Of a stretch of 64,000 nt of DNA, positions 12,055 through 35,041 are shown one piece after another; positions within the stretch are counted from its first letter, which is position 1; the number at the start of each line of letters is the position of its first letter. The position numbers were made by a program, and so were the translations under genes. Source of the stretch: an uncultured Eubacteriales bacterium (GTDB lineage Bacteria; Bacillota; Clostridia; Oscillospirales; Oscillospiraceae); the NCBI GenBank assembly GCA_900321275.1, contig ONVI01000003.1, forward strand, positions 23,711 through 87,710. The letters are read 5' to 3'. The notes below the pieces were generated by a model. It was not told where the DNA came from, searched no databases, and was given only the letters and a program-made list of their open reading frames with translations.

Positions 12055-12095
12055 AACCGGACTTTTTCAAAGCAATGGAAAAGTTCGGTTTTTTT
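12055..12095 (+). terminator. Rho-independent terminator of the YtfQ-like operon
   Basis: AACCGgACTTTT pairs with AAAAGTtCGGTT and runs into seven T. It closes the first importer operon. Upstream, 11962-12050 has a small GGCCGaaaaCGGCC-type hairpin and a TTGTACAA palindrome of unknown role; no gene fits in 11962-12307. Confidence 0.8.
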
Positions 12096-12128
12096 ATATA
12101 ATTCTTTGAAATAATCGAGTTAAAACAG

Positions 12129-12208
12129 ATTTGTATGTATGAGAAAGAAAAAACGTGACAAATTTGTATTGTTGATGCGGTCGAAAATGAGTTTTTGTAA
12201 GTACAACT
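12129..12208. promoter_or_regulatory. Triple AraR-like operator array, site 2
   Basis: Windows 12129-12144, 12162-12177 and 12193-12208 resemble ATTTGTACGTACAAAT. The proximal copy (TTTTGTAAGTACAACT) matches 13 of 16. Centres are 33 and 31 bp apart, and the last ends 1 nt before the -35, the same geometry as at 7032-7110. Confidence 0.68.
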
Positions 12209-12209
12209 G

Positions 12210-12238
12210 TTGACTTTCGTGACAAAAACCACTATGAT
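12210..12238 (+). promoter_or_regulatory. Promoter of the second importer-araABD operon
   Basis: TTGACT (12210-12215), a 17-nt spacer and TATGAT (12233-12238) stand 70 nt ahead of the binding-protein ATG, abutting the proximal AraR-like operator. Confidence 0.7.
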
Positions 12239-12307
12239 ATAGACAGAAAATCCGAATGTGTTCGGATACAAAAGCAGCACACCAAAATACGAAATGGAGG
12301 AAAAAAC

Positions 12308-13429: not shown

Positions 13430-13450
13430 TTCAATCACCGGAAACGGGAT

Positions 13451-13479
13451 GCGGGTCTTTTGACCCGCACCCTTTTTTT
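13451..13479 (+). terminator. Terminator/attenuator after the binding-protein gene
   Basis: GCGGGTC-tttt-GACCCGC followed by ACCC and seven T. The next gene starts 15 nt later with its own AGGAGG, so partial readthrough is expected. Confidence 0.7.
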
Positions 13480-13493
13480 GTAGGAGGCATAAC

Positions 13494-14444: not shown

Positions 14445-14454
14445 GGTGCGGGAT

Positions 14455-15954: not shown

Positions 15955-15967
15955 GGAGGCGATGAAG

Positions 15968-20980: not shown

Positions 20981-21841
20981 TTATCCCTTGACCGCGCCGC
21001 TGGTCATACCGGCGATGATCTGCTCCTGGAAGATGATATAGCCCAGGATGGAGGGGATAATGGAAATCACGATAGCTGCGTACATGGAGACGTAGTCCGT
21101 GGAAAACTGGTTGGTAAAGTAACGGATACCAACCTGCACGGTGCGCAGCTTCTCGGACGAGACGATGAGGTTTGCGAACACAAACTCATTCCAGCAGGTC
21201 AGAAATTCAAAGGTCGCGGCAGTGACGATGCCCGTGCGGCTCAAGGGCAGGATCAGGTAGAAAAAGCGCCCGAAGAAACCGCAACCATCGATGTACGCTG
21301 CCTCCTCCAGCTCCATCGGGACAGAGTCCATCAGGCCGCGGATGAGGAAGGTGGACATCGGGATACCGATCGCACAGTAAAGCAGGATCATGCCGCCGTA
21401 GGTGTTATAGAGCCCCAGTTTGTTGATGATAACAAAGTAGGGAACCATCAGCGCGTTCAGTGGTACAAGGATGCCCGCTGTGAAGAGCGTGAAGATCTTC
21501 TCGCGCCCCTTGAAGCGGAAGCGGGAGATGCAGTACGCGCCCATGCTGGCGATAATGACGTTGACGGCAGTAGCGGCCAGACCCACGAAGACGGAGTTCA
21601 AGAGCATCCGACCGAGACCCGCGACGGCTAGAGCGTTGACATAGTTCTGCCACTGGGGAACCTTCGGCAGCGCGAAGGGAGAGCCCGCGAGGAACTCAAA
21701 GTTCGTTTTCAGTGAGGAAATGATCAGCCAGATCAGGGGGAAGAGGGTGTAGACCGCGAAGAAGATAATCAGAATCCAGCGGATGATTGCCAGAAGCAGA
21801 TCCTTCCCGTGCAGGGGGGCATGGATTTTATTCTCGCTCAT
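20981..21841 (-). CDS. Carbohydrate ABC transporter permease (MalG type)
   Basis: A 286-residue inner-membrane permease of the CUT1/MalG family with six hydrophobic segments and the EAA loop EEAAYIDGCGFFGRFFYLILPLSRTG (near residue 180). Starts overlap the MalF-type gene stop by 4 nt (ATGA). Partner of the next gene in importing an oligosaccharide or glycoside. The operon has no ATPase gene, so a shared MsmK-like ATPase elsewhere must energise it. Position beside the sulfoquinovosidase gene makes sulfoquinovosyl glycerol or SQ a plausible cargo (inference). Confidence 0.9.
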   Translation of the reverse strand: MSENKIHAPLHGKDLLLAIIRWILIIFFAVYTLFPLIWLIISSLKTNFEFLAGSPFALPKVPQWQNYVNALAVAGLGRMLLNSVFVGLAATAVNVIIASMGAYCISRFRFKGREKIFTLFTAGILVPLNALMVPYFVIINKLGLYNTYGGMILLYCAIGIPMSTFLIRGLMDSVPMELEEAAYIDGCGFFGRFFYLILPLSRTGIVTAATFEFLTCWNEFVFANLIVSSEKLRTVQVGIRYFTNQFSTDYVSMYAAIVISIIPSILGYIIFQEQIIAGMTSGAVKG

Positions 21842-22758
21842 TTCACAGCCCTCCTTGCTTTTTTGAGGGCGCGGAGCTGTTTTGCCTGTTCGCTGCGCCC
21901 TTCAAAGAGCTTGCGGATGCAGACAATGAAGATGACCCCCACGATGATGAGCACCACGGCGGAGGCGCTGGCCACACCGTAGTTGGTGTCCTGCATCTTC
22001 TTGTACATGTACAGCACAATGGTGGACGTGGTGTTGGCGGGCTGACCATTCGTGAGCATGTAGACCTGCTCAAACTGTCTGAGGCCCATGACGCTCGCCA
22101 AGGTGATGCACGTCAGCAGGGAAGTGTTTTTTATCAGCGGGATGGTGATGTAGATCGCCTGCTGAAAATCCGTCGCCCCGTCGATAACCGCCGCCTCGTA
22201 GTAGGAGCTGTCGATCGTGGTGATGTCCGCCATCATGATGACCATGTAATAGCCGATGTAGAACACCCAGTAGATCAGCACGGCGGGGAAGGCTGTCTCT
22301 ATCGTTCCCAGCCAGTCCCGCGCGAGATGCCCGAGGCCGACTGCGCGAAGCAGACCGTTGAGAAGGCCAGTGTCCGCGCTGTAAATGGCGCGCCACAAGG
22401 TGGCCAGCGCAATGCCGGAAATGACCTGCGGGAAGAAGTAGACCGTGCGGAAGAACTTCCATCCCTTTGGCTTGCGTGAGAGGATGATTGCCATCACCAT
22501 CGCCAGCGGCACCTGGATGAAGCCCGCGACCAGCGCCCAGATCACGTTGTTGATAACCGAACGGGTGAAAGCCTTGTCCTTATAGAGCAGCAGATAATTC
22601 TTGAAGCCTCTGGCAATGGGGGCGGAAATGCCGTTCCATTTCAGAAAGCTGACTACGACCACGTAGATGACGGGAATTATGAAGAAGATCACCATGACCA
22701 CGATTGCCGGGAGCAGAAAAGCGATCAGGGGACCTCTGTCAGAGCGTTCAAGTTTCAA
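21838..22758 (-). CDS. Carbohydrate ABC transporter permease (MalF type)
   Basis: A 306-residue MalF-family permease with six hydrophobic segments and an EAA loop (YYEAAVIDGATDFQQAIYITIPLIK). The start is TTG at 22758 with AGGAGGTGGG 4-10 nt upstream. It follows the binding-protein gene across a strong stem-loop and overlaps the MalG-type gene by 4 nt. Confidence 0.9.
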   Translation of the reverse strand: MKLERSDRGPLIAFLLPAIVVMVIFFIIPVIYVVVVSFLKWNGISAPIARGFKNYLLLYKDKAFTRSVINNVIWALVAGFIQVPLAMVMAIILSRKPKGWKFFRTVYFFPQVISGIALATLWRAIYSADTGLLNGLLRAVGLGHLARDWLGTIETAFPAVLIYWVFYIGYYMVIMMADITTIDSSYYEAAVIDGATDFQQAIYITIPLIKNTSLLTCITLASVMGLRQFEQVYMLTNGQPANTTSTIVLYMYKKMQDTNYGVASASAVVLIIVGVIFIVCIRKLFEGRSEQAKQLRALKKARRAVK

Positions 22759-22788
22759 AAACCCACCTCCTATGGATCAAAGAAGAAA

Positions 22789-22816
22789 ACAGGCTGCGGT
22801 TTTCACCGCAGCCTGT
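22789..22816 (-). terminator. Attenuator stem-loop after the family 1 binding-protein gene
   Basis: ACAGGCTGCGGT pairs perfectly with ACCGCAGCCTGT around a 4-nt loop; on the minus strand TTTTC follows. It lies between binding-protein stop and permease start and should reduce readthrough to the permeases. Confidence 0.7.
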
Positions 22817-22830
22817 CAGCGGATCAACAA

Positions 22831-24105
22831 TTATTCGGCCAGCTCGATGGCAGTCTGGAGCTGATCAACAAAGCCCTCTTCGTCAATCTGGTTCAAAACC
22901 AGGGCGGAGACGGCGGCAGGGAACTCCGTGGAGAAGGCCGTCGGGAAAGCGCCGTTGACGTGGAGGATGGTGTAGCTTGCGTTGTTGGAAATCTCGGTGA
23001 ACTTCTGGGAGATCAGAGAGGTTTCGGGAGACGGGGTGTATTTAATGAAGAACATTGCGCCGGAGCTGAGCGCCCACTCGGAGACGCGCTCAGGATCGGA
23101 GATGTACTGCAGGAACTTGACAACGGCTGCTTCCTTCGCGGGATCATCCTGCTTGGCAGCGGCCAGGAAGCCCTGAACGGTGGTCACAAGACCCTTGCCG
23201 TCGCCCTTACCGCCTTCGTAAACGGGATTGGTGGCAACGTCGCACACGTCGGCGAGCTTCACGCCGTCAACGGCGTTGTCATCCTTGTAGAGGTTGGCAA
23301 TCCACCAGGGGCCGTTGAGGTAAACGGCAGTGTCGCGGGCGATGAAATGGCCATTGACATCGGAGGCGGTGGCGGAAACGGCGCCGTCGAAGGTATAGTT
23401 GTACATTTCCTTGAGGACCTTGGCGGCCTCAACAAAAGCGGGGTTATCCAGACCGTCGGCATAGACATCCTTACCGCCAATGGCTTCCACGATCAGCGAG
23501 TACCAGAGCATGGAGGACCAGGCGTTGTCGCCCGCCATCTGACCCATGGCGTTGAAGCCTGCAGCCTTGACGTCCTTGCACATCTGGAAGAACTCGTCAT
23601 AGGTAGCGGGGAAGTGATCCCAACCGGCAGCCTTCAGAATCTCAACATTATAGACGAGGGGGAACACAGCGGCCTCGAAGGGGAGGATGCTGACCTTGCC
23701 GTCGACAGACCAGGCGTCAAATGCGCCGTCAGTGAAGTTCTCACCCCAGCCCTCATTCAGGTAGGGAGTCAGATCCATGAACTTGCCGGATTCCGCGTAA
23801 GCCTTGATATCAAAGGTGGTGTCCAGCACGCAGAGGTCAGGGGCGTTGCCCGTGGTGATGGTGGTGCGGATCTTGTCACGGTAGGCCTGATAGTCGGTCT
23901 GTTCCTCGACGACGACCTTGATCTTGCCGGCGTTCTCTGCGTTAAAGTCCTCGATCATCTTGGACATGTAGGCGGCCTTGGAGTCGGTGCCGACCCAGAT
24001 GCTGGGGAAGTTGATGATGATCTCATCATCAGCGTACGCGGGCATGGAAGCGACCAGGCCGAATACCATGACCAGAGTCAGAAGCAGAGCGAAGGTTTTT
24101 TTCAT
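22831..24105 (-). CDS. Extracellular solute-binding protein family 1 (SQ or SQ-glycoside binder candidate)
   Basis: A 424-residue SBP_bac_1 (maltose-binding fold) protein. The ATG at 24105 starts the signal peptide and has AAGGAG 9 nt upstream; the open frame extends 6 codons further. The signal peptide ends MPAYA-DD with no cysteine. Family signs: NAPDLCVLDTTFDIKAYAESGKFMDLTPYL near residue 100, and AVYLNGPWWIANLYKDD near 265. Its operon delivers two MalFG-type permeases and sits next to the GH31 sulfoquinovosidase-like gene, comparable in logic to SmoF-type sulfoquinovosyl glycerol binders; ligand is inferred. Confidence 0.85.
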   Translation of the reverse strand: MKKTFALLLTLVMVFGLVASMPAYADDEIIINFPSIWVGTDSKAAYMSKMIEDFNAENAGKIKVVVEEQTDYQAYRDKIRTTITTGNAPDLCVLDTTFDIKAYAESGKFMDLTPYLNEGWGENFTDGAFDAWSVDGKVSILPFEAAVFPLVYNVEILKAAGWDHFPATYDEFFQMCKDVKAAGFNAMGQMAGDNAWSSMLWYSLIVEAIGGKDVYADGLDNPAFVEAAKVLKEMYNYTFDGAVSATASDVNGHFIARDTAVYLNGPWWIANLYKDDNAVDGVKLADVCDVATNPVYEGGKGDGKGLVTTVQGFLAAAKQDDPAKEAAVVKFLQYISDPERVSEWALSSGAMFFIKYTPSPETSLISQKFTEISNNASYTILHVNGAFPTAFSTEFPAAVSALVLNQIDEEGFVDQLQTAIELAE

Positions 24106-24185
24106 GATTACTCTCCTTTTCATTTTTTTAATTAACAGTTTTAATCAATTGCTTTAATAAAAAAGCACTTGACTGGTACACAATT

Positions 24186-24214
24186 ATTATAGTGAGACCA
24201 TACAGCTTTGTAAA
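24186..24214 (-). promoter_or_regulatory. Promoter of the MalFG-type importer operon
   Basis: On the minus strand TTTACA (24214-24209), a 17-nt spacer and TATAAT (24191-24186) lie about 80 nt ahead of the binding-protein start. The importer can thus be transcribed separately from the GH31 operon upstream. The 207-bp gap holds nothing else recognisable. Confidence 0.7.
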
Positions 24215-24312
24215 GCCCCCTTTGCCTTACAAAACGTAGATTTTGAACCTTGAAATTTGTCAATCATGCACAAAAGAAACGGAGATATGCAAAAAACTAT
24301 AACACAGCTTTA

Positions 24313-26325
24313 TCAGTTTTGACGATTCTGCTGTATGGCGTTCAATTCGGCAAAGAGAGGCGCGAAGGGAGAGGCAGCACGATAGAACACGGGGGGCTGT
24401 CCCAGCGGAGCGGGGACAGTGACGCGGCCGCCCGTATAGCGCTCGCCGCTCCAGAGCTGTATCCATTCGCCGGAAGGAAGCCACAGTGCACGGGTATCGG
24501 CACCGGCCTCAACCACTGGGGCCACCAGCACGTCCGGGCCGAGAAGGTAGCTGTACAGCTTTTGATCCCAGGCCTCCGGTGCGTCTGGATCGGCCAGAAA
24601 GAGCGGGCGCATCACGGGCAGGGAGCGTTCCGTGTTCTCGCTTACGCAGAATGCAAGGTAGGGGAGCAACGCGTCGTGCAGCCGGGAAAGCCGCGCGGCG
24701 GCTGCGATGATACGCTCGCTGTCGTAGAGCTGCACATTGGAATCCGGACGGTTGCCCTCGTGAGTGCGGATGACCGGTGTAAAGCAGGCAAATTCCAGCC
24801 AGCGCAGCAGCAGTTCCTCATCCCGATGGAGATGGAAGAGCGTAGTGTAGCCGCCCGCATCGCAGGTGTGCAGGCCGTAGCCCGACATGCCGAGCGTCAG
24901 CGCCGCAGTGACGACGGAGGGGAGACCGTCGTCCTCCGACCAGTCGACGTTCTGATCGCCGCCCCAGATGAGGGTGGCGTATCGCTGGCTGCCCGCCGCG
25001 CCCGCGCGCATAAAGAACACGCATTCGCCGAGCTTGCCAGCTTCCTCCACAGCCTCGCGGTTGCATTTGGCCCAGAGCATCGGCCAGGCGTTATGCAGTT
25101 TAAGACCGCTGCCGCCCGCGCAGACCGCGTCCGCCGGGAGATATTCACCGAAGTCCGCCATCCAGCCCTTGAAGCCCAAGCCGATGAGATTCTTCTTGAT
25201 GACGTTTTTGTACCATTCAAACGCGGCGGGCATGCTCAAATCGACCACGCCGCAGTCATATTCACCAAAGTCAAACAGATAGTCCGAGCCGTCGGCGCGC
25301 TTGACGAAATAGCTCTTTTCCGCGGCCTCGCGGAAGAGCACGCCGCCCTCCACCAGATAGGGGTTGATATAGCCCATCCAGGCAGTCCCGGCGTCTCCTG
25401 CGATGACCTGGTCAAGACCGGGGTAGAGCTCGCGATTCCAGCGCCAGTCCCATTGCAGGCGCTTGCCGAAGGAAGTGACGCGCTTGCCCTCCCAATCCTG
25501 AATCCAGACCGCGGAGACGTCCACGCCACCCTTCCGGCAGCGCTCCGCCATCTCAAGGGCACGCGCTGTCCCGCCCTGTACGCCGAGCCAGATCCCCTTC
25601 ATTGCCCAATCGGGCAGTGCGAGCTGACGCCCAAGCAGCGCGCCGAGCCTGTCCAGCAGCTCCGCATAGGAAGCGCCGCAGCTGAGGACGAGGCGCATTT
25701 GCGGCGTCCAGAGCATGAGCTCGTGATAATCTGCTTCGCGGAAATCAAGCTCCGCATATTCGTAGTTTTCCAGATGCGCAAAGTACAGGCGCGAGGAGAC
25801 GAAGGTAGGCTGGGGAAAGAAGGTGGTGTAATAGTCCCCGCCGCTGCCGTCTAAGGCGTCGGCCAGGCGCGTGATCTCGCTCAGCTTATTGCGGCCAACA
25901 CCCTGTTCCCGCGTCCAGATGGGGTAATTGCGCCCACGCAGATCGAGTGCGGAAAACTGCTCACCGCCGCCGGTCACATGCTCGCCGGGCTCAGCGTGCA
26001 TCCGCAGCCAGAGGCGGTTGACGCGCACATCGCCGCAGCTTCCATCCAGCCGCAGCAGGCCGTTCGCCTCGGTGAAGGAGAGCCGGTATTCGCCGTCCAG
26101 CGCGGGGTGGGAAAAACGCAGGCACTCGCCGTCCGCGCCGAGAAAACGCAGCGCCAGGCGCTCATCCAGGCGGTCGCGAATCGTAAAGTTGCCGCGGAAC
26201 ATGGAGATGTCCTCGCGCCCCATGCCGAGAAAGAGCGCGGGAGCTTCCGGGGTGTGGCGCAGCAGGAGCCGGTCGTCATACCGGAGCTCCAGCGCGCCGG
26301 GAGCAGGATATTGAAAATGGAACAT
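24313..26325 (-). CDS. GH31 glycosidase, probable sulfoquinovosidase (YihQ-like)
   Basis: A 670-residue GH31 enzyme predicted to release sulfoquinovose from its glycosides (EC 3.2.1.199 activity). The nucleophile segment GWMADFGEYLP puts Asp at 391; acid/base GGDQNVDWS puts Asp at 457. The residues that read the sulfonate in E. coli YihQ (Gln288, Arg301, Trp304, Tyr508) all have counterparts: Gln276 in IQDWEGKR, Arg289 and Trp292 in FGKRLQW, and Tyr493 in GGYTTLF. This combination is diagnostic of the sulfoquinovosidase subgroup against plain alpha-glucosidases. No signal peptide, so it acts in the cytoplasm after uptake. It is the last gene of a minus operon with DUF624 and isomerase genes. 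Confidence 0.9.
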   Translation of the reverse strand: MFHFQYPAPGALELRYDDRLLLRHTPEAPALFLGMGREDISMFRGNFTIRDRLDERLALRFLGADGECLRFSHPALDGEYRLSFTEANGLLRLDGSCGDVRVNRLWLRMHAEPGEHVTGGGEQFSALDLRGRNYPIWTREQGVGRNKLSEITRLADALDGSGGDYYTTFFPQPTFVSSRLYFAHLENYEYAELDFREADYHELMLWTPQMRLVLSCGASYAELLDRLGALLGRQLALPDWAMKGIWLGVQGGTARALEMAERCRKGGVDVSAVWIQDWEGKRVTSFGKRLQWDWRWNRELYPGLDQVIAGDAGTAWMGYINPYLVEGGVLFREAAEKSYFVKRADGSDYLFDFGEYDCGVVDLSMPAAFEWYKNVIKKNLIGLGFKGWMADFGEYLPADAVCAGGSGLKLHNAWPMLWAKCNREAVEEAGKLGECVFFMRAGAAGSQRYATLIWGGDQNVDWSEDDGLPSVVTAALTLGMSGYGLHTCDAGGYTTLFHLHRDEELLLRWLEFACFTPVIRTHEGNRPDSNVQLYDSERIIAAAARLSRLHDALLPYLAFCVSENTERSLPVMRPLFLADPDAPEAWDQKLYSYLLGPDVLVAPVVEAGADTRALWLPSGEWIQLWSGERYTGGRVTVPAPLGQPPVFYRAASPFAPLFAELNAIQQNRQN

Positions 26326-26338
26326 AGCTTCCTCCCAA

Positions 26339-26956
26339 TTATTCGTTATACCAGTCGTCAGGCCGACCCTGACCGACGGAGAGCGCGCGCAGGGCAGGCT
26401 CGATGGAAAAGCTCATCAGCAGACACAGCGCCCCCGGCAGCAGCGGCGCGATCTGCGGAAGGAGCCAGCAGACGAGCCCCACCAATACGATTTCAAAGAA
26501 AATCAGCAGCGTCTGCTTCCAATTACGGAGCGCGAGATAGACGGCGAAGCGCACTGTGCCCATCAATGTGTTTTCAAAACGCGAGAGAAAGGCAAAAATC
26601 CAGGGCATCACCATCACAATCGGCAAAAGCAGCAGGCGGGAAAAGGCATAGAGAAAATCCCCGCGCTGTATGCCCATCTGCGAAAAGGCGACGATGTCCA
26701 GAAGTCCAATCCCCAGTGCCGCAAGACATAAAAGCCACAGCAGCGTCGCCTGCCGGAAGTTTTTACGGAAGGCGCGGAAGAAAAAGCGGGTCGGCTCCGG
26801 GATATCATGGCGCACGCATTTGACCATTGTGTAGTACAGCGCTGTGGAGGCCGCGCCGACCGTGACGACCGGCAGGGAACACAGCAGCCACAAAATGCCC
26901 AGCCATACAATGTCAATCAGAGCAGTGAGCGCCTCATGGAGCCTGGATTCTTTCAT
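26339..26956 (-). CDS. DUF624 (YesL-like) membrane protein
   Basis: A 205-residue protein with about five hydrophobic segments (residues 12-40, 75-95, 105-130, 145-190). The N-terminal pattern (LTALIDIVWLGILWLLCSLPVVTVGAASTALYYTMVK) is the hallmark of DUF624. Such genes accompany MalFG-type ABC importers in Firmicutes; their molecular role is unknown. It overlaps the isomerase gene stop by 4 nt and precedes the GH31 gene by 13 nt. Confidence 0.85.
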   Translation of the reverse strand: MKESRLHEALTALIDIVWLGILWLLCSLPVVTVGAASTALYYTMVKCVRHDIPEPTRFFFRAFRKNFRQATLLWLLCLAALGIGLLDIVAFSQMGIQRGDFLYAFSRLLLLPIVMVMPWIFAFLSRFENTLMGTVRFAVYLALRNWKQTLLIFFEIVLVGLVCWLLPQIAPLLPGALCLLMSFSIEPALRALSVGQGRPDDWYNE

Positions 26957-28329
26957 ATCTCCTTATTGCGGTAGAAGTCGGCATCGACGGTGTATCGGCA
27001 GACCTCAAAGCCGTACATCTCCGCCAGCGTTTCGAGCGTACGGGCATGCAGGCCCTTGATGACCACAAAATGCGGCTCGAAGCCGTCCAGCACGCTCCGC
27101 TCCACGAGCGCGCGACTGTCGCTGAAGGTTCTGACGACGATGGAGGTGCCGATGAACTGCTTGGGCTTGTCCAGCGCTTCGCCCTCGGCGATGAAGAAGC
27201 GGAAGGTGCCGTCCGGCTCACGGCCGACGCGAAAGATGGTGGCTTCGGGGAAGGCCTCGCAGCCGAAGTCCATCGCGGGGCCGATCTTGCGGTTCGGGTG
27301 CACGCCGACGACAGCGCCGGTATCGTGCCGCGCCAGCGAGCAGGCCGCCGCGCCGCAGTGCCAGAAGGTCACGGTGTTTTCGCCCTCGTCCAGAGAGACG
27401 GGATCGCCGAAGAAGACGGGCTCGTGGGAAAGCTGCATGCCGATCCACATGGACAGCGCGCCGTAGATATCGGCCTCGCAGGCGGCGGCGACGCCCTCGT
27501 CATTGAGCATGGAGAGAACTGTGCACACCGGGGTGCCGAAGGCGGTGAAGAAGTCCGGCCAGCAGCGGGAGGCCAGCGCCCCGATGTTGTGGTTCTTTAT
27601 ATAGGAACGATACGCTTCCAGCAGGCGGGCATGGTCACGGATGTTGTTCTCCGGGGTCTTGTCGAGACCGGCGGTGACCTTTTCGGTCTCGGCTATGGCG
27701 GAATCCAGCTCGGAATCGGCGAGCTTCTTCGCCTCGTCGATCAGCTCTCTGGCCTCAACCGCTTCCAGCTCCACGCCGAAGGTGTTCATCAGCTCGCTGT
27801 CCAGCGCGCGGCCGAAGCCGAAGCCCTGGGGGGTATGGCCGACAGCCGCCATTTTAAGGCTGCGCATCTCCTTCTTGACCCGCGCGGCGGCAACGCCGGC
27901 CTTCACGGCCGCGACCGTCTCCTCTTCCTCCGGCGCGCCGAAGACATAGGAGAAGGGGCGGTAATCGAAGGCGCGCAGCGTGTTGGCAGCGGAGTAGGCG
28001 CCGGTCAGGGAATTGAGGCGCAGGCGTCCGCCGTCGATCACCGGCTCGCGCAGCGTCCAGAGCAGCACCGGGCAGTCGAAGCGGCGCAGCACCTCGGACA
28101 TGTAGGCGGCGTTGGCAAAGGTCAGATTCTGGAATACAATAAGGTCGGGCTGGAGACCCTGCATGTAATCGCGCAGCTTGTCGAGACTCAGCAGCATCTC
28201 ACCGGGCACGACGAAATTCCCGTCGATCCCGCGCAGAAGCCTGATTGAGCGCTCAAACTGATCCTGGGCGCTTTCGAGATGGAAGGTGGGGACGCCCACC
28301 GGAATGTAAACAGGTGTAAAGCTCATCAT
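26953..28329 (-). CDS. L-fucose/L-arabinose isomerase-family protein, candidate sulfoquinovose isomerase
   Basis: A 458-residue protein with the fold signature of L-fucose/arabinose isomerases: an N-terminal Rossmann-like part (LQPDLIVFQNLTFANAAYMSEVLRRFDCPVLLW), a middle region with CWPDFFTAFGTPVCTVLSMLNDEGVAAACEADIYGALSMWIG (Cys/Glu-Asp metal-site segment) and a C-terminal HCGAAACSLA. These are the residues typical of the family's metal site. Beside a YihQ-like glycosidase and a split transketolase, SQ to 6-deoxy-6-sulfofructose is the expected reaction, the step I recall as SqvD/SftI in described pathways. AGGAGG lies 6 nt upstream of the ATG; a second ATG follows at 28326. First gene of the minus operon. 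Confidence 0.8.
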   Translation of the reverse strand: MMSFTPVYIPVGVPTFHLESAQDQFERSIRLLRGIDGNFVVPGEMLLSLDKLRDYMQGLQPDLIVFQNLTFANAAYMSEVLRRFDCPVLLWTLREPVIDGGRLRLNSLTGAYSAANTLRAFDYRPFSYVFGAPEEEETVAAVKAGVAAARVKKEMRSLKMAAVGHTPQGFGFGRALDSELMNTFGVELEAVEARELIDEAKKLADSELDSAIAETEKVTAGLDKTPENNIRDHARLLEAYRSYIKNHNIGALASRCWPDFFTAFGTPVCTVLSMLNDEGVAAACEADIYGALSMWIGMQLSHEPVFFGDPVSLDEGENTVTFWHCGAAACSLARHDTGAVVGVHPNRKIGPAMDFGCEAFPEATIFRVGREPDGTFRFFIAEGEALDKPKQFIGTSIVVRTFSDSRALVERSVLDGFEPHFVVIKGLHARTLETLAEMYGFEVCRYTVDADFYRNKEI

Positions 28330-28367
28330 GATGATCCTCCTGTATGAATTATTTAACAGCGTGAATA

Positions 28368-28396
28368 ATCATAGCTTCCCGCGGCACGAATGTCAA
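28368..28396 (-). promoter_or_regulatory. Promoter of the isomerase-DUF624-GH31 operon
   Basis: On the minus strand TTGACA (28396-28391), a 17-nt spacer and TATGAT (28373-28368), about 40 nt from the isomerase start. Confidence 0.75.
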
Positions 28397-28440
28397 GCGT
28401 ACTTTTATTTTCAGGCAAAATTTTTTTCTTCAATTTCCTA

Positions 28441-28469
28441 TTGACAAAGCGCGGCGGCGGTACTAAACT
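28441..28469 (+). promoter_or_regulatory. Promoter of the transketolase operon
   Basis: TTGACA (28441-28446), a 17-nt spacer and TAAACT (28464-28469), 68 nt ahead of the TTG start. The operator below overlaps the -10. Confidence 0.7.
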
Positions 28470-28480
28470 ACACATTAGTT
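28466..28480. promoter_or_regulatory. Candidate ROK operator AACTA-N5-TAGTT
   Basis: Perfect inverted half-sites overlapping the -10 and start site of the transketolase promoter, a position suited to repression. The half-sites equal those at 4137-4150 near the other ROK gene. The likely binder is the ROK protein encoded at 32868-34088 in the same operon. Confidence 0.55.
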
Positions 28481-28537
28481 AGATCTTTTAATCAAATTTT
28501 TCATTATCAAACATTCTTCGTCAGGAGGAGATCAAAG

Positions 28538-29362
28538 TTGAACTACGATCTGAAAGAAGTCTGCAAGGATATCCGCTGTGATATCATGACCTGCATCGGG
28601 CATCTCGGCGTCGGCCACATCGGCGGCTGCCTTTCCGTCACCGAGCTGCTGGCTGTCCTCTATTTTGAGGAGATGAACATTGACCCGAAGAACCCCAGAA
28701 TGAAGGGGCGCGACCGCTTCGTGTGCTCCAAGGGTCACGCCGGCCCTGCCGTGTATGCGGCGCTTGCCAACCGCGGCTACTTTGATAAGAAAGAGCTGCT
28801 CACTCTCAACCAGGGCGGCACCAACCTGCCCAGCCACTGCGACATGAACCGCACCGTCGGCATCGACATGACCACCGGCTCCCTGGGTCAGGGCTTCAGC
28901 TGCGCCGTGGGCGTGGCGCTCGGCTCCAAGCTCGAGGAGGACGGCGCGACAATCTACGCCCTCATCGGCGACGGTGAGAGTCAGGAAGGCCAGATCTGGG
29001 AAGCCGCGATGTTCGCCGCCTCCAAGAAGCTGGACAACCTCATCGCCTTCACCGATTACAACAAGCTGCAGATCGACGGCACCGTGGCCGAGGTCAACGA
29101 CATCGCGCCTCTCGCCGACAAGTGGGCCGCCTTTGGATGGAACGTCATTGATGTGGAAGACGGCAACGACGTCGAGCAGGTTTCCGAGGCTGTCAAGCAT
29201 GCCAAGCTCGGCATCGGCAGCGGCAAGCCCACCATGGTGATCCTCAATACGGTCAAGGGCTGCGGCGTGCAGTGGATCGTGGATCTGGGCTCCGGCAACC
29301 ACAACACCAAAGTCAGCGAGGAGCAGGCCAAGGCCGCCATCGCGGAGATCAGGGGGGAATAA
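28538..29362 (+). CDS. Transketolase N-terminal (TPP-binding) subunit, SqwG-like candidate
   Basis: A 274-residue protein equal to the pyrophosphate-binding half of transketolase. Motifs in order: GHLGVGHIGGCLSVTELL (residues 20-40), RDRFVCSKGHAGPAVYAAL (62-80), GSLGQGFSCAVGVALG, and TPP/Mg site GDGESQEGQIWEAAMFA near 145. Start is TTG at 28538 with AGGAGG 9 nt upstream. The partner half is the next gene, 3 nt away. Two-subunit transketolases also serve ordinary pentose metabolism; the neighbouring SQ-type genes suggest cleavage of 6-deoxy-6-sulfofructose and 4-deoxy-4-sulfoerythrulose with glyceraldehyde-3-phosphate as acceptor (inference). Confidence 0.92.
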   Translation: MNYDLKEVCKDIRCDIMTCIGHLGVGHIGGCLSVTELLAVLYFEEMNIDPKNPRMKGRDRFVCSKGHAGPAVYAALANRGYFDKKELLTLNQGGTNLPSHCDMNRTVGIDMTTGSLGQGFSCAVGVALGSKLEEDGATIYALIGDGESQEGQIWEAAMFAASKKLDNLIAFTDYNKLQIDGTVAEVNDIAPLADKWAAFGWNVIDVEDGNDVEQVSEAVKHAKLGIGSGKPTMVILNTVKGCGVQWIVDLGSGNHNTKVSEEQAKAAIAEIRGE

Positions 29363-29365
29363 GAA

Positions 29366-30289
29366 ATGGAAATGAGAGCTGTTTACGCGGGCTGCCTTGC
29401 CGAACTGATGGAAAAGGACCGCCATGTCTGCGTCCTGGACGCCGACCTTGCCAAGGCCAGCGGCACCCGTAATCTCTATGAGCGCTTCCCGAAGCAGATG
29501 TTCGACTGCGGCGTTGCCGAGCAGGACATGGCCTCCATCGCGGCAGGCCTTGCTAGCTACGGTTTTAAACCCTGGATCGAGACCTTTACGCCCTTTGCCA
29601 CCCGCCGTATCTGCGACCAGATGACGATCTCCATCTCCTACGCGAAGAGCAACGTCAAAATCGTCGGCACCGACCCCGGCATCTCTGCCGAGCTCAACGG
29701 CGGCACGCACATGAGCCTGGAGGACGTGGGCGTCGTCCGCTCCATCCCCGGCATGGTGATCTTTGAGCCGGTTGACGCCGTGCAGCTTCGCGCGGCCATG
29801 CCCGTTCTGAACGCCTATGAGGGTCCTGTCTACGTCCGCCTGTTCCGCAAGGAGCTGCCCGACGTCTTCCCGGCGGACTATAAGTTCGACCTCTTCAAGG
29901 CCGATGTCCTGCGCAAGGGCAAGGATCTCTCGATCTTCGTCACCGGCTTTTTGACCAGGGACGTCGTCGACGCCGCCGAGACGCTCAAGGCTGAGGGCAT
30001 CGACTGCGAGGTCATCAATGTCCACACCATCAAGCCCATCGACCGTGAGACCGTGATCGCCTCCGCCCGCAAGACCGGCGCCGTGCTGACCGTGGAGAAC
30101 CACAACGTCATCGGCGGCCTCCACTCCGCCGTACTCGAGGCGCTGGCCGAGGAGAAAATCCCCGCCGTCGCCGTCGGCGTGCAGGACCGCTTCGGCGAAG
30201 TCGGCAAGATCCCGTATCTGCGCGAGGTGATGGGTCTGACCATGGAGGACATCCTCGCCGCCGCCAGAAAGGCCGTCAAGCTTAAATAA
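29366..30289 (+). CDS. Transketolase C-terminal (pyrimidine-binding) subunit, SqwH-like candidate
   Basis: A 307-residue Pyr plus C-terminal domain half of transketolase. It shows MFDCGVAEQDMASIAAGLASYG (catalytic Glu of the pyrimidine domain near residue 55), NGGTHMSLEDVGVVRSIPGM near 115 and the C-terminal VENHNVIGGLHSAVLEAL. Pairs with the preceding subunit. Confidence 0.92.
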   Translation: MEMRAVYAGCLAELMEKDRHVCVLDADLAKASGTRNLYERFPKQMFDCGVAEQDMASIAAGLASYGFKPWIETFTPFATRRICDQMTISISYAKSNVKIVGTDPGISAELNGGTHMSLEDVGVVRSIPGMVIFEPVDAVQLRAAMPVLNAYEGPVYVRLFRKELPDVFPADYKFDLFKADVLRKGKDLSIFVTGFLTRDVVDAAETLKAEGIDCEVINVHTIKPIDRETVIASARKTGAVLTVENHNVIGGLHSAVLEALAEEKIPAVAVGVQDRFGEVGKIPYLREVMGLTMEDILAAARKAVKLK

Positions 30290-30311
30290 GCCAGAATCAG
30301 AAACAAAACCC

Positions 30312-30336
30312 GGCCTTCCCCAAAACGGGGAAGGCC
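30312..30336 (+). promoter_or_regulatory. Intercistronic stem-loop before the RpiB-like gene
   Basis: GGCCTTCCCC pairs with GGGGAAGGCC around a 5-nt loop in the 86-nt gap between transketolase and isomerase genes. There is no T-run; probably an mRNA stability element. Confidence 0.55.
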
Positions 30337-30375
30337 ATTCATAAATAATATAAATACTATCTGGAGGACAGTATC

Positions 30376-30852
30376 ATGAAAATTGCCATCGGCAGCGACA
30401 AATCCGGATTCTCCGCGAAGGAAGCCATCCGCGCCTATCTCGTTGAGGCAGGCATCGAGTTCGACGATCTCGGCACTGTGAGCCTTGATGAAGTCCACCC
30501 CTACTACCAGGTCGCAAGCGAAGTCGCGCCCAAGGTGCAGGACGGCACCTATGACCGCGCGGTTCTGATCTGCGGCACCGGCGCTGGCATGAGCGTCGTC
30601 GCGAACAAGTACAAGGGCGTTCACGCCGTCGCGTGCGAGGGCGTCTACTCCGCGAAGATGGCCCGCGCCATCAACAACGCCAAGGTGCTGTGCATGGGCG
30701 GCTGGATCGTCGGCCCCGAGATGGCCGTGGAGATGGTCAAGACCTTCCTCGCCACCGACTGGTGCCAGGATCTGGAGGATTGGCGCGCCGCGAACATGCA
30801 CAAGTTCGCTGTCAAGGTCGCCGAAATCGAGGACGCGTGCTATGGCAAATGA
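30376..30852 (+). CDS. RpiB/LacA-LacB-family isomerase, SqwI-like candidate
   Basis: A 158-residue member of the ribose-5-phosphate isomerase B family. The catalytic ICGTGAGMSVVANKYKGVHA segment (Cys near residue 72) is intact. Two phosphosugar-site histidines differ: the usual SDHAGF is SDKSGF (His to Lys at 9), and the usual REHNDANVL is RAINNAKVL (His to Ile near 103). Loss of these argues against a standard pentose phosphate substrate and fits a sulfonated sugar; in the sulfo-TK pathway a RpiB-like enzyme interconverts 4-deoxy-4-sulfoerythrose and sulfoerythrulose. It overlaps the next gene by 11 nt. Confidence 0.88.
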   Translation: MKIAIGSDKSGFSAKEAIRAYLVEAGIEFDDLGTVSLDEVHPYYQVASEVAPKVQDGTYDRAVLICGTGAGMSVVANKYKGVHAVACEGVYSAKMARAINNAKVLCMGGWIVGPEMAVEMVKTFLATDWCQDLEDWRAANMHKFAVKVAEIEDACYGK

Positions 30853-31939
30853 GTTTGTCTACGCCCAGCCGGTCAAGATGTTCTTCGGCGAGGGCAAATT
30901 TGCTCAGCTCGGGAGTGTCCTGGATGAGCTCGGCGTCTCCCGCTGCGTGATCGCCTGCGGAAAGCATTTCGCCCCCACCGCCCAGGCTATGATGGAAAAG
31001 GATCCCCGCATCGTCGCCGTCTTCGGCGGGGTGGAGCAGAACCCGCAGCTCTCCGGCGTCATTGAGACCACGCGCCTTGCCCGTGAGCATAAAGCCGACG
31101 CCGTCATCGGCATCGGCGGCGGCAGCTCCATCGACACCGCAAAGTTCGCGGCAGCCATCGCCCTCGACGGACATGAGGCCATCGAGTACTACCGTGGGGA
31201 GCGCCCCTTCCCGACCGAGCGCCTGACCATTATCGCCGTCCCGACCACCGCCGGCACCGGCAGCGAGGTGACGCAGGTCTCCGTCGTCTCCCACAATACC
31301 GAGAAGAAGACCATCAACAACCCTGCCTTCATGCCGAAGGCCGCGATCGTCGATCCCGCGCTCATGCTCACCGTGCCGCCACGCACCACCATGAACACCG
31401 GACTTGACGCCATGGCCCACGCGCTGGAGGGCTACTGGAGCAAGAACCATCAGCCCATCCCCGACCTCATGGCCATCGAGGCCGTGCGCCTGATCCTCGC
31501 CAATCTTGAGACCGCTTTCCGCGACGGCTCAAACATGGAGGCGCGCTCCAATATGGCGATGGCGTCCCTGCTGGGCGGCCTGAGCTTTGCCCTGCCGAAG
31601 ACTGCCGCAAGCCATGCCTGCAGCTATCCGCTCTCCGAGGACTATCATCTGCCCCACGGCGAAGCCTGCGCCTTCACGCTTGACAGCCTCGTGCGCATCA
31701 ACGCGGACGAGCGCCTTGAATATCTGGCAAAGGCAGTCGGCCTGAAAAACACCGCCGAGCTTGCCGAGAAGATCCGTGCTTTCAAGGAGATGGCGGGCCT
31801 GCGCTCGAAGCTCTCCGATCTGGGCGAGGTCGATCTGGACAAGCTCTGCCGTGACTGCGCCGCGCATCCCCTGATGAACAACAACCCCGTCAAGATGACG
31901 GAGGAGAAGCTGCGGGAGATGTTTGAAGCTCTGAAATGA
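30842..31939 (+). CDS. Iron-containing alcohol dehydrogenase, candidate sulfolactaldehyde reductase
   Basis: A 365-residue group III alcohol dehydrogenase. Nucleotide-binding IGIGGGSSIDTAKFAAA lies near residue 85; the four metal ligands are visible as Asp and His in GLDAMAHALEGYW and two His in SHACSYPLSEDYHLPHGEACAF. Within a sulfo-TK-like operon it would reduce 3-sulfolactaldehyde to 2,3-dihydroxypropane-1-sulfonate and regenerate NAD. The family alone does not fix the substrate; glycerol, lactaldehyde or butanol-type substrates are alternatives. Confidence 0.88.
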   Translation: MANEFVYAQPVKMFFGEGKFAQLGSVLDELGVSRCVIACGKHFAPTAQAMMEKDPRIVAVFGGVEQNPQLSGVIETTRLAREHKADAVIGIGGGSSIDTAKFAAAIALDGHEAIEYYRGERPFPTERLTIIAVPTTAGTGSEVTQVSVVSHNTEKKTINNPAFMPKAAIVDPALMLTVPPRTTMNTGLDAMAHALEGYWSKNHQPIPDLMAIEAVRLILANLETAFRDGSNMEARSNMAMASLLGGLSFALPKTAASHACSYPLSEDYHLPHGEACAFTLDSLVRINADERLEYLAKAVGLKNTAELAEKIRAFKEMAGLRSKLSDLGEVDLDKLCRDCAAHPLMNNNPVKMTEEKLREMFEALK

Positions 31940-32850
31940 GAGATAATCTGAAATACACCCTGATGATTCCGGGGATGGTGATCTCCTGGTCGATATACTA
32001 CGCGGTCAGCAAGGTCATGGTAAACGCGACGGGCTCCGCGCTGCTGGCGGGCTTTCTGCTGCGCTCGGCCGCGCTGGTGTTCCTGACCATACAGCTGCTG
32101 GCGGACGGGAGCTTTTCGCGCCTCTTCCACCAGGGGAAGGCTGTGTTCATCCTCGTGCTCATCGGCGTTTTCGGCTTTCTGTTGGATCTGTTCGCAAACC
32201 TCGGCTATGCAAACGGCTCCCTCTCCACCGGCACGGCGCTTTTGAAGACGGACGTGCTGATGGTGAATCTCGCCACTGTGTTCCTCTATAAGAAGAAGCT
32301 GTATTTCTCCGACTGGGTGGGAACCGTCATCATGCTCATCGGCGTGCTGCTGGTGCTGGGCGTGGACTTTGACGGGATGGAGCTGCACGTGACCGATCTG
32401 TACTTCCTGCTCTCCGCTGCCTGCGTTACCGCCAACGCCTTCATCATCAAGGCCGCGCAGGAGAAATACCACGAGGACGCGGACATGATTTCCTATTATA
32501 ATAATCTCGTCGTGCTGCTGCTCTTCGGCTTCAGCGCGGCGGCCGCGGGGCATTTTAAGCCCGGCTGGCTGGATAGCGTCAAAAACCTGTGGTGGCTGAT
32601 CGCCCTCGGCGGTCTTGCCCAGACGGGAATCTATTTCTTCTACTACCGCAATCTCAAGCACTTCGAGGTCTGGATTGTGAAGCTTTACCTGCTGCTCATG
32701 CCGGTGGTGAGCTGTTTTATCGGCGTCTTCTTCCTCCATGAGGAGCTGACGCCCAAAAAGCTGCTGGGTATCCTTGTCGTGCTGGCCGGCGCCGCCGTCA
32801 TTCTGATGCGCGGCAAGATCAACCATGAGAAGGCTCAGCCGAATAGCTGA
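31936..32850 (+). CDS. EamA/DMT-family permease, candidate sulfonate exporter
   Basis: A 304-residue protein with about ten hydrophobic segments in two EamA repeats (roughly residues 5-135 and 155-295), as in drug/metabolite transporters. Overlaps the dehydrogenase stop by 4 nt, so it is co-translated with the pathway. Import is already served by the ABC system, so export of the C3 sulfonate product is the more likely role. This is inferred from position only. Confidence 0.85.
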   Translation: MRDNLKYTLMIPGMVISWSIYYAVSKVMVNATGSALLAGFLLRSAALVFLTIQLLADGSFSRLFHQGKAVFILVLIGVFGFLLDLFANLGYANGSLSTGTALLKTDVLMVNLATVFLYKKKLYFSDWVGTVIMLIGVLLVLGVDFDGMELHVTDLYFLLSAACVTANAFIIKAAQEKYHEDADMISYYNNLVVLLLFGFSAAAAGHFKPGWLDSVKNLWWLIALGGLAQTGIYFFYYRNLKHFEVWIVKLYLLLMPVVSCFIGVFFLHEELTPKKLLGILVVLAGAAVILMRGKINHEKAQPNS

Positions 32851-32867
32851 CGGAAGGAGAACATGCC

Positions 32868-34088
32868 ATGCCCTTTGAAGGCGACAATATGATGGGCGTC
32901 AAGCGCAACAACCGCAGCGCGACGCTCCGCATTCTCCATGAAAAGGGCGACATGTCCCGCAAGCGCCTGGCAGAGTATATGAAGCTCACGCCGCCCGCGA
33001 TCACCAAAATCGTGGCGGAGATGCTGCAGGAGGGGCTCCTGCGTGAGGGCAGCGCCGTGTCGAGCGGCGCCGTCGGCAGGCGGGAGATCCTTGTGGAACT
33101 CAACACCCACGCCGCCTGCGGCCTCGGCGTTCTGATCAATCTGCGCCAGGCAATCCTCTCGGCGACCTGGCTGGACGGAAGCGTGATCTTTTCGGAGGAA
33201 ATTATCCTGCCGCCCCGCGCCCCGGCAAGGGAAACGGTCGAGCGCCTTGCCGCGCGACTCATGGAGCTTGTGGAGGAAAACCTGCTCGCCAAAGAGCGGA
33301 TCGTCGGCCTTGGGATTGCCGTGCGCGGCATCACGATCAGCAATCGCCGCGGCGTTAACGACAGCTTCGGAGCCCTTGCGGAGGAGAACGTGCCCCTGTG
33401 CGACTGGTTTGAGGAGCTGACGGGGCTGAGGTGCATGCTGGCAAATAACGTGCGTGCCCTGCTTGCGGCGCAGATGTTTCTCTCCAAGGACGAGGCCTGC
33501 GGCTCCCAGTTCTTTCTGCGCTGCGTGGACGGCATCGGCGCCGCCCTCTCCATCGACGGAAAAATCTGGCACGGCGTGACGCTCCAGTGCTCGGAAATCG
33601 GTCATATCCCCGTGGTACGGCGGGGCGGCAAGCCCTGCTCCTGCGGCAAGAGCGGCTGCCTGGAGACGATCGCGTCTCCCTCTGCCATTTTGGAGGAAGC
33701 CAACGCTGTCCTCTCGCCGGAGAAGACGCCGGTGCTCTGGAAAATCGTACAGGGGAAAGAGACGCGGAAGGTTGCGCTGGACGACGTGTTCAGCGCCGCC
33801 TCCAGCGGGGACGACGGCGCGGCGACCATTGTCGATACCGCCGTGCATGCCCTCGGCGGCGCGGTCAAATCCGTCATCTATCTCATTGATCCCGGCAAGA
33901 TCGTCCTTTACGGCAGAATGTTCGACAACGATTATTTCCTTGCCCACTTTTTCAGCGAGATGCGGGAGGGAATGGATACCCGGCACAATGTCACCATTGA
34001 GAAAAGCCGCTTCAACCACCAGTTGGAGGATAAAGCGGCCTGCCTGCTTGCGGTGCAGGATTACTATGATAACGGAGGCATCCTTTGA
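32868..34088 (+). CDS. ROK-family transcriptional regulator of the SQ-type operon
   Basis: A 406-residue ROK repressor: helix-turn-helix near residues 20-65 (SRKRLAEYMKLTPPAITKIVAEML) and ROK domain with CSEIGHIPV and zinc-site PCSCGKSGCLE (near 258-268). AAGGAG lies 9 nt upstream of the ATG. As sixth gene of the operon it is the probable repressor acting on AACTA-N5-TAGTT at 28466-28480, with SQ or a pathway intermediate as inducer. Confidence 0.88.
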   Translation: MPFEGDNMMGVKRNNRSATLRILHEKGDMSRKRLAEYMKLTPPAITKIVAEMLQEGLLREGSAVSSGAVGRREILVELNTHAACGLGVLINLRQAILSATWLDGSVIFSEEIILPPRAPARETVERLAARLMELVEENLLAKERIVGLGIAVRGITISNRRGVNDSFGALAEENVPLCDWFEELTGLRCMLANNVRALLAAQMFLSKDEACGSQFFLRCVDGIGAALSIDGKIWHGVTLQCSEIGHIPVVRRGGKPCSCGKSGCLETIASPSAILEEANAVLSPEKTPVLWKIVQGKETRKVALDDVFSAASSGDDGAATIVDTAVHALGGAVKSVIYLIDPGKIVLYGRMFDNDYFLAHFFSEMREGMDTRHNVTIEKSRFNHQLEDKAACLLAVQDYYDNGGIL

Positions 34089-34756
34089 TGAACAAGATTT
34101 TGAATACGCTGCGGAAGAAAAATCCCGATATCGACATCCTCCCCGTAACAGATGAACGCTTCAAGTACTACGGACGCGTTCTCGGCGGGCGGGACGAGGC
34201 GCTGTCTGCGGCGCTGTCTGCAACGGAGATCCCGGCGGAGGGCAATCTGTACCGCGCTTCGGTGGAATCGCTGGAGAGCGTTCCCGTTATCGCCGATGTT
34301 CGGCGCGTCGCCTTCGGTGAGATGGAGACGCAGGCCGGCTTCTGCAACGGCCGCGGCTATACGCTCAACGCGCTGGAATACCATAAATGCAGCGAGGTCA
34401 ACTACACGACCACCGGGCTGGTGCTGCTGCTGGCGCTGCCCCGGGATGTGGAGGACGGGCGTCTGGATTCTTCCTCCGTTGTCGGTTTCTATCTGCCGCC
34501 CGAGACGCTGATTGAGGTACTCCCCGGCGTTCTGCATTTCGCGCCCTGCCGGATAAGCGAGGAGGGCTTCAACTGCCTGGTCGTGCTGGAAAAGGGCGTC
34601 AACAGCCCGATCGACCGCGTGGATACCGGCGCGCCCGGAGAAGAAAAGCTTCTCTGGATGCGTGGGAAATGGATGACCTGCCACCCGGATTCTCCCCAGG
34701 CGCAGAAGGGCGCTTTCGTCGGCATCACCGGCGAGAACCTGACATTGAAGATCTGA
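34088..34756 (+). CDS. DUF4867-family protein
   Basis: A 222-residue soluble protein without a known function. It has a cupin-like beta-rich look: LEYHKCSEVNYTTTGLVLLLAL (His and Glu typical of a metal or acid-sugar site, near residue 100), VGFYLPPETLIEVLPGVLHFAPC. The ATG overlaps the ROK stop (TGATG) with GGAGG 9 nt upstream; TTG at 34085 is less likely. Terminal gene of the operon. A sugar mutarotase, lyase or sensor role in SQ metabolism is possible but unproven. Confidence 0.75.
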   Translation: MNKILNTLRKKNPDIDILPVTDERFKYYGRVLGGRDEALSAALSATEIPAEGNLYRASVESLESVPVIADVRRVAFGEMETQAGFCNGRGYTLNALEYHKCSEVNYTTTGLVLLLALPRDVEDGRLDSSSVVGFYLPPETLIEVLPGVLHFAPCRISEEGFNCLVVLEKGVNSPIDRVDTGAPGEEKLLWMRGKWMTCHPDSPQAQKGAFVGITGENLTLKI

Positions 34757-34822
34757 AATAAAAATGCAGGGGGCCGATCCCCGGATCGACCCGCCGAACA
34801 ACGTTGATTCGCGTATAACGGC

Positions 34823-35037
34823 GGGCCGATGTGGGCATCGGCCCCCAAGCTGTCGACAAAGTGTCGACAGCTTGAGAGACAAAAATGGGAACTTCCGAAA
34901 AAGTTCCCATTTTTGCACGGATTGTACGTGAAGGGGGACTCCCCGTCCCCCTTCACAGATTCCCCTTGCAAGACCAACTTGGTTTGCAAGGGTTTGTCTA
35001 CAGTCTGCGGGCCGATGTGGGCATCGGCCTCTTTTTT
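34823..35037. repeat. Array of six hairpins between convergent genes
   Basis: Consecutive inverted repeats: 34823-34844 (8-bp stem), 34847-34873 (12 bp), 34881-34914 (14 bp, A/T ends, a good bidirectional terminator), 34928-34956 (12 bp), 34963-34992 (9 bp plus inner 3) and 35009-35029 (7 bp plus T-run). The first and last share the 20-nt core GCCGATGTGGGCATCGGCC, forming direct repeats. No ORF. The array fills nearly the whole gap between the DUF4867 and metF genes. Confidence 0.85.
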
Positions 35038-35041
35038 GTAT

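Follow-up and report, generated by a model that had tools for sequence, protein, structure and literature searches.

How does a bacterium equipped with a gene cluster for sulfoquinovose (SQ), a sugar found in the sulfolipids of plants, break it down, and which sulfonate does it leave behind? The question is raised by positions 20981-34756 of a 64,000-nucleotide stretch (hereafter the window) from an uncultured Eubacteriales bacterium (assembly GCA_900321275.1, contig ONVI01000003.1). This interval holds 13 genes, all intact open reading frames (ORFs), in two divergent runs (20981-28329 on the minus strand, 28538-34756 on the plus strand). It is very probably a complete sulfo-transketolase (sulfo-TK) island of the isethionate-producing type. 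The pathway itself is already published, rumen Oscillospiraceae included, and the window is a further example of it. A more tentative point concerns its split transketolase, SqwGH, which is the only transketolase found in the genome.

Composition of the island

Gene families were assigned with Pfam and NCBIfam profiles, and the gene content, family membership, key residues and synteny of the island described below are direct observations. All of the genes named in a first-pass annotation, made from the sequence alone, are intact members of the families proposed. It overlooked two, encoding a DUF624/MusI-like protein (26339-26956) and a DUF4867 protein (34085-34756). The MalFG-type importer that it placed next door is present, with MalF, MalG and a solute-binding protein, but shares the strand run of the GH31 gene and lies inside the interval. 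The features are as follows.

20981..21841, minus strand: MalG-like ABC permease, presumed SQ/SQ-glycerol importer (predicted substrate); PF00528
21838..22758, minus strand: MalF-like ABC permease; PF00528
22831..24123, minus strand: extracellular solute-binding protein, with a signal-like N-terminus on reading; PF13416/PF01547
24313..26325, minus strand: YihQ-type GH31 sulfoquinovosidase, with no evident signal peptide on reading; NCBIfam PRK10426
26339..26956, minus strand: DUF624/MusI-like membrane protein; PF04854, with NF052431 (MusI family) below cut-off
26953..28329, minus strand: SqvD/SftI sulfoquinovose isomerase, FucI-like; NF048012
28330..28537, no strand: divergent intergenic region, presumed to hold promoters and operator; from reading the sequence
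28538..29362, plus strand: SqwG, thiamine pyrophosphate-binding half of the split sulfofructose transketolase; PF00456, E 6e-48
29366..30289, plus strand: SqwH, pyrimidine-binding and C-terminal half of the transketolase; PF02779 and PF02780
30376..30852, plus strand: SqwI, RpiB-like 4-deoxy-4-sulfoerythrose isomerase; PF02502 (LacAB_rpiB)
30842..31939, plus strand: SqwF-like Fe-alcohol dehydrogenase (Fe-ADH), presumed sulfoacetaldehyde reductase; PF00465
31936..32850, plus strand: EamA-family permease, candidate isethionate exporter; PF00892
32868..34088, plus strand: ROK-family transcriptional regulator; PF00480 and a MarR-type helix-turn-helix
34085..34756, plus strand: DUF4867 protein SqvB/SftX, putative SQ ring opener or mutarotase; PF16161, E 1e-60

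Every catalytic step is proposed by analogy with published relatives. The ABC importer would take up SQ or SQ-glycerol, cytosolic YihQ would release SQ, and DUF4867 would aid opening of the SQ ring. SqvD would convert SQ to sulfofructose, whose C1-C2 unit SqwGH would transfer to glyceraldehyde-3-phosphate, giving xylulose-5-phosphate (Xu5P) and sulfoerythrose. After isomerization of sulfoerythrose to sulfoerythrulose by SqwI, a second cut by SqwGH would yield another Xu5P together with sulfoacetaldehyde, which SqwF would reduce to isethionate. The EamA permease may export isethionate, and the ROK protein is the presumed regulator of the island. The substrate of the importer, the identity of the exporter, the ligand of the regulator and the role of DUF4867 are assignments with little support.

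Several described systems resemble this island. Isethionate-yielding sulfo-TK is reported from cow-rumen Caproiciproducens, Ca. Limivicinus and Sphaerochaetaceae; sqwG, sqwH and sqwI are highly transcribed during SQ degradation, and 35.5% of 313 Ca. Limivicinus genomes have the pathway (PMC13219744). The legend of a four-genome figure in that paper lists YihQ, SftI/SqvD, SqwGH, SqwI, SqwF and SftX for Ca. Limivicinus sp900317375 and other rumen clusters, with rumen Oscillospiraceae represented, a likeness to the window in gene content, and the product in the microcosm is isethionate, as proposed here. Clostridium sp. MSTE9 (SqvD, SqvB, SqwGH, SqwI, SqwF, SqwE) shares the enzyme set and DUF4867 but, as far as its description allows comparison, differs in having SqwE where the window has an EamA permease (PMC9594981, PMC12890257). 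The bifurcated cluster of Faecalicatena, which combines sulfo-TK with a sulfo-transaldolase (sulfo-TAL) branch, has SqvD, SqwGHI, an Fe-ADH and the Asp of the SqwH motif in common with the window (PMC11659671), but the window lacks its transaldolase genes. Agathobacter (Eubacterium) rectale shares SqvD/SftI and DUF4867, whereas its sulfo-TAL (sulfo-SFT) route cuts with a transaldolase to C3 sulfonates (PMC11968277).

At L078 (G207:C112), a bifurcated locus resembling that of Faecalicatena, SqwGHI are accompanied by YihQ, an Fe-ADH, a pair of transaldolase-family genes and a transporter of the TctA family, for which the TctC match is weak. The proteins of this locus are 34-58% identical to those of the window.

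Predicted recognition of the sulfosugar

The GH31 protein matches PRK10426 at 865.8 bits (cut-off 553), and the closest PDB structure is that of E. coli YihQ (5aed, E 2e-223). In the alignment to 5aed, the residues that in E. coli YihQ bind the sulfonate (Q288, R301, W304 and Y508) and catalyse (D405 and D472) are all kept, as Q276, R289, W292 and Y493 and as D391 and D457, respectively. NCBIfam gives a single match for the isomerase, NF048012, sulfoquinovose isomerase (E 4.4e-118). Residues E285, D309 and H420 of the isomerase, presumably metal ligands whose E-to-D spacing is that of FucI, are identical in 10/10 aligned sequences, counting that of the window. DUF4867 scores 205.1 bits with PF16161 (cut-off 28.7) and matches PDB 9gyy (E 4.7e-48); it corresponds to SqvB/SftX, described as a sulfoglycolysis-associated protein (PMC9594981). 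The solute-binding protein matches 30 PDB sequences at 1e-5, and SQ binding appears in the name of none.

Outside the window, about 2.6 kb to its left (G000:C26:19196-21096; L001, L003), lies another DUF4867 gene, which shares 41% identity with the one inside. Its neighbours are a distantly SqvD-like isomerase (25%) and a match resembling FGGY kinases (24%), and it apparently belongs to a separate sugar cluster.

Residues at the sugar head distinguish the transketolase. The motif reads RAFDR in sulfofructose transketolase and RSFHR in ordinary ones (PMC11659671). In an alignment of 29 SqwH-type sequences, with columns placed by that paper and by yeast transketolase numbering, the SqwH of the window reads R-A-F-D-R, that is, the sulfofructose type. 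D103 replaces the phosphate-site His and, eight residues on, N111 replaces an Asp; the section of PMC11659671 on the motif makes no mention of the latter position. This Asp/Asn (D/N) pair occurs in the window, in 10/10 other SqwH proteins of the genus, in the bifurcated cluster L078 and in 4/4 mid-type clusters. Among 12 other transketolases of the genus, 10 have His/Asp; the exceptions are L249, with Asp/Asn, and L246, with neither. Asp with its linked Asn separates sulfosugar from other transketolases better than does the Ala of RAFDR. A pattern scan of the best 80 of 432 loci with an SqvD relative finds the pair in 74, the other six giving no match, and it may serve as a simple marker to tell sulfosugar from ordinary transketolases in metagenomes. 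SqwI is a second member of its family: a housekeeping-type RpiB, 42% identical to it, is encoded on contig C17.

The L249 transketolase (G504:C19:8500-11700) is 48% identical to SqwG, has the D/N pair with Lys in place of the first Arg, and comes from a genome without a close SqwG; it is possibly another sulfosugar enzyme. Diverged SqwGHI-like genes (SqwG 55-56%, SqwI 44-54%) are found in four genomes of the same genus, at L250, L251, L252 and L253 (G491, G495, G513 and G005), all with the D/N pair in SqwH. L250 additionally has SqvD (65%), Fe-ADH (40%), EamA (39%) and a piece of YihQ (53%), and L251 an Fe-ADH (41%).

Conservation among relatives

In a scan of named genomes, the best 80 of 432 loci with an SqvD relative were retained, and gene presence was scored by tblastn at set identity thresholds. 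Relatives were deemed testable if the locus extended 6.5 kb or more on the side of SqwGH (n=57; 23 shorter ones excluded) or 7.5 kb or more on that of YihQ (n=53; 27 excluded). SqwG, SqwH and SqwI lie divergent from SqvD in 57/57 testable loci, and the association is therefore not due to chance. Together with the YihQ residues and the SqwH Asp/Asn pair, this bears out the transketolase-type SQ catabolism proposed in the first pass. Further along the SqwGH side, Fe-ADH is present in 52 loci, EamA in 48, ROK in 36 and DUF4867 in 30; on the YihQ side the counts are 24 for YihQ, 16 for DUF624, 15 for the solute-binding protein, 16 for MalF and 20 for MalG. The core is therefore SqvD-SqwGHI-FeADH-EamA, while the sulfoquinovosidase and importer vary. 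When 20 loci of the genus are read at length, Fe-ADH is seen in 17; it is absent from L049 and L050, and L039 ends before that position.

A search of 99 genomes with SqvD finds a close copy or piece in 37/60 same-genus genomes besides the source genome (best piece 62-91% identical); for the 38 genomes from elsewhere in the order, the best piece among the matches listed is 46% identical over 54 residues. At 1e-40, the isomerase family is detected in 21 of 391 genomes of the class, the source genome included, none of them over the family cut-off. The 80 loci carry titles such as Ruminococcaceae, Oscillospiraceae, Clostridiales, Clostridia and similar metagenome assemblies. Every site named among them is the gut of a ruminant (goat, sheep, cattle, yak, water buffalo, roe deer); assembly names in RUG presumably denote rumen genomes. 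The source bacterium is probably rumen-dwelling and, judging from habitat and family, its genus is probably Ca. Limivicinus or a near relative.

Fate of the sulfonate

The first-pass annotation had the pathway end in reduction of sulfolactaldehyde to 2,3-dihydroxypropanesulfonate (DHPS), a C3 compound. Published sulfo-TK chemistry does not agree with this: the second cut yields sulfoacetaldehyde, which SqwF reduces to isethionate, a C2 compound (PMC9594981, PMC12890257). The corollary that a C3 sulfonate is exported to sulfite-reducing gut bacteria loses its C3 part, whereas respiration by such bacteria still fits, with isethionate as the sulfonate. The window adds a well-supported uncultured member to the isethionate-yielding SQ route, whose product can feed sulfite-respiring bacteria.

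The profile comparison suggested earlier for the isomerase and the Fe-ADH gives NF048012 and PsrA, respectively, as first models, both with scores below cut-off. For the Fe-ADH, PsrA, which we take to be phosphonoacetaldehyde reductase, reaches 218.2 bits (cut-off 423.7), and SarD, sulfoacetaldehyde reductase, is only the sixth model (173.7 bits, cut-off 700). For the Fe-ADH of L078, PsrA likewise comes first (232.2) and SarD fourth (217.0). Such a ranking would fit an anionic C2 aldehyde as substrate but proves nothing. No PFL-like glycyl-radical enzyme able to split isethionate was found in the source genome.

In two loci without Fe-ADH, a GH36-type gene follows SqwI (L151:2788-5127, L152:4371-6710). 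For its length, this 779-amino acid product was considered as a glycyl-radical enzyme and rejected, as the L151 copy is GH36 (melibiase) by Pfam and that of L152 has the same NCBIfam match.

Alternatives to the isethionate route

Several observations weigh against the assignment as an isethionate-producing island. The isomerase scores 394.8 bits with NF048012, under the equivalog cut-off of 700; the SqvD of L078 is also under it, at 372.2 bits. The Ala of RAFDR is only partly diagnostic, being Ser in 2/11 SqwH proteins of the genus and Met in L078 and the four mid-type clusters, while Ala is also found in 4/12 other transketolases of the genus. Nor is the D/N pair perfect: L249 has it, and L080, a more remote cluster that has an SqvD relative, carries neither residue. 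The Fe-ADH of the window is just 34% identical over 317 residues to that of L078, and the gene is missing in 5/57 testable relatives. Finally, the cluster has no gene for a SqwE (TauE-type) exporter, the EamA permease being there instead, and a search of the open-access literature turned up no paper that ties EamA proteins to the export of isethionate. The only PF01925 (TauE/SafE) gene found in the genome, the family to which we take SqwE to belong, is on contig C54. SqwE is treated here as accessory, not essential, to the sulfo-TK pathway.

The absence of Fe-ADH from those five relatives means that sulfoacetaldehyde may have another fate there. In a variant known from Firmicutes it is oxidised to sulfoacetate (PMC12890257). 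That the window follows this SqwD/SqwKL type of Acholeplasma is highly improbable, since its cluster carries an Fe-ADH with PsrA as best model, and none of the 13 genes there, to which the search for such a dehydrogenase was confined, encodes a CoA ligase or a CoA-acylating aldehyde dehydrogenase. Slightly less probable still is a sulfo-TK core that ends in a C3 sulfonate (DHPS), or a pathway that branches between transketolase and transaldolase, as in Faecalicatena. Bifurcated clusters do exist (PMC11659671), L078 has its transaldolase-family genes right beside SqwGHI, and four PF03446 matches (26.4-36.1 bits, over the Pfam cut-off of 21), from the family of sulfolactaldehyde reductases, occur elsewhere in the source genome. 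However, no transaldolase is among the 13 genes, and no PF00923 match is found in the genome (93.4% complete) by a search that is positive in 10/14 control genomes, which makes a transaldolase-made C3 branch unlikely; the published chemistry, too, yields C2 products.

It might also be argued that the GH31, the FucI-like isomerase, the transketolase and the RpiB-like protein serve ordinary sugars or pentoses and are unrelated to sulfosugars. The island does adjoin sugar importers and an L-arabinose operon, and relatives of DUF4867 also occur in non-sulfo sugar clusters (PMC11968277). Yet the sulfonate-binding residues of YihQ, NF048012 as the one NCBIfam match of the isomerase, the D/N pair of SqwH and the existence of a separate housekeeping-type RpiB render this the least probable of the alternatives.

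A possible single transketolase for two pathways

In the source genome, PF02779 detects only SqwH and a DXS, and SqwGH is thus the sole transketolase found, although the adjoining arabinose operon should make Xu5P. The earlier suggestion that Xu5P is the carbon entering metabolism, in a pool shared with arabinose, gains weight from this, because no transketolase other than SqwGH was found in the assembly for either sugar. Recycling of Xu5P to acetyl-phosphate by a phosphoketolase was considered and set aside, there being no PF09364 match in the source genome. It is therefore conceivable that one enzyme serves both pathways. A tentative proposal, with the balance somewhat against it, is that SqwGH has taken the place of the housekeeping transketolase in this bacterium, and possibly in as many as three in ten SqwG-bearing relatives. 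A single enzyme would then carry out sulfofructose cleavage as well as the transketolase reactions of the non-oxidative pentose phosphate pathway. The evidence is suggestive only.

A search of 101 genomes of the genus with SqwG gives 68 SqwG-bearing (counting G026, where it ends at a contig end) and 33 SqwG-lacking genomes. At first count, no further N-half transketolase is found in 26/68 against 4/33 (Fisher p 0.0098). These 26 and G501 were rechecked with PF02779, discounting one SqwH and one protein of at least 571 amino acids taken as DXS. Six of the 27 (G010, G011, G055, G502, G510, G524) have another Transket_pyr protein over cut-off, which reduces the count to 20/68. The corrected comparison, which leaves the other 42 SqwG genomes and the 33 SqwG-lacking ones as counted (a recheck could only lower 4/33), is 20/68 versus 4/33 over all genomes (p 0.080). 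With completeness of at least 80% it is 12/49 versus 2/26 (p 0.119), at 85% or more 11/35 versus 1/20 (p 0.039) and at 90% or more 6/21 versus 1/16 (p 0.113). Post hoc, G501 (SqwI at a contig end) and G002 were reclassified as SQ genomes and three mid-type genomes set aside. The values then become 21/70 versus 3/28 (p 0.067) overall and, at the same three thresholds, 13/50 versus 1/22 (p 0.050), 12/36 versus 0/17 (p 0.005) and 7/22 versus 0/13 (p 0.031).

Assembly gaps were controlled for with the housekeeping-type RpiB, which is missing in 6/68 SqwG genomes and 0/33 others; among the former, 19 lack only the second transketolase and five only RpiB (p 0.0066). If one further transketolase per genome is assumed, completeness predicts 10.9 missing against 20 observed (P 0.0035). 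G489, the sister of the source genome on the SqwG tree (SqwG 97%), is likewise a sole-transketolase genome. Clade-wise loss of the housekeeping transketolase was rejected on the first labels (25/67 sole), which require 20 changes on the SqwG tree against a shuffled mean of 20.3 (247/500 as low). The corrected labels (19/67 sole) are at most weakly clustered, with 14 changes against 16.7 (24/300 as low); the figures are 8 against 10.0 (20/300) for genomes at least 80% complete and 7 against 8.8 (31/300) at 85% or more. Clustering this weak would be expected from gaps in the assemblies or from frequent gain and loss, and it argues against replacement.

A review lists the acceptance of other pentose-phosphate acceptors by SqwGH as untested (PMC9594981); the sole-transketolase state makes this question testable. 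The point was not seen in titles and abstract openings of the open-access literature on SqwGH, Limivicinus and sulfoquinovose, which did not cover the original MSTE9 paper. If SqwGH does serve both pathways, pentose use and the supply of erythrose-4-phosphate would depend on it, despite the Asp that replaces the phosphate-site His. The 'specialist' sulfosugar island would then be tied to essential metabolism, and its loss would cost the cell the pentose phosphate pathway.

Flanking and intergenic sequences

No operator palindrome was found in the divergent region (28330-28537), and the sole inverted repeat reported there is a ribosome-binding-site-like pair, TCCTCCTG/CAGGAGGA. To the left, the neighbouring genes read as an L-arabinose operon, with AraA domains, an FGGY kinase nearest to XylB and a class II aldolase, presumably AraD. 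Before this operon, at 7203-16939 of the window, lie two adjoining sugar ABC importers, both below NCBIfam family cut-offs; one most resembles the galactofuranose type (YtfR/YtfT/YjfF), and the ATPase of the other is nearest to the xylose type. To the right are a protein with an MTHFR domain and then an ORF that reads as methionine synthase-like. The gap between the DUF4867 and MTHFR genes (34757-35041) contains palindromic repeats around GGGCCGATGTGGGCATCGGCCC, whose five matches, counted on both strands, represent three sites. All five matches in the window fall inside this gap, against 0.02 expected, and the repeats may be terminators or a dispersed repeat.

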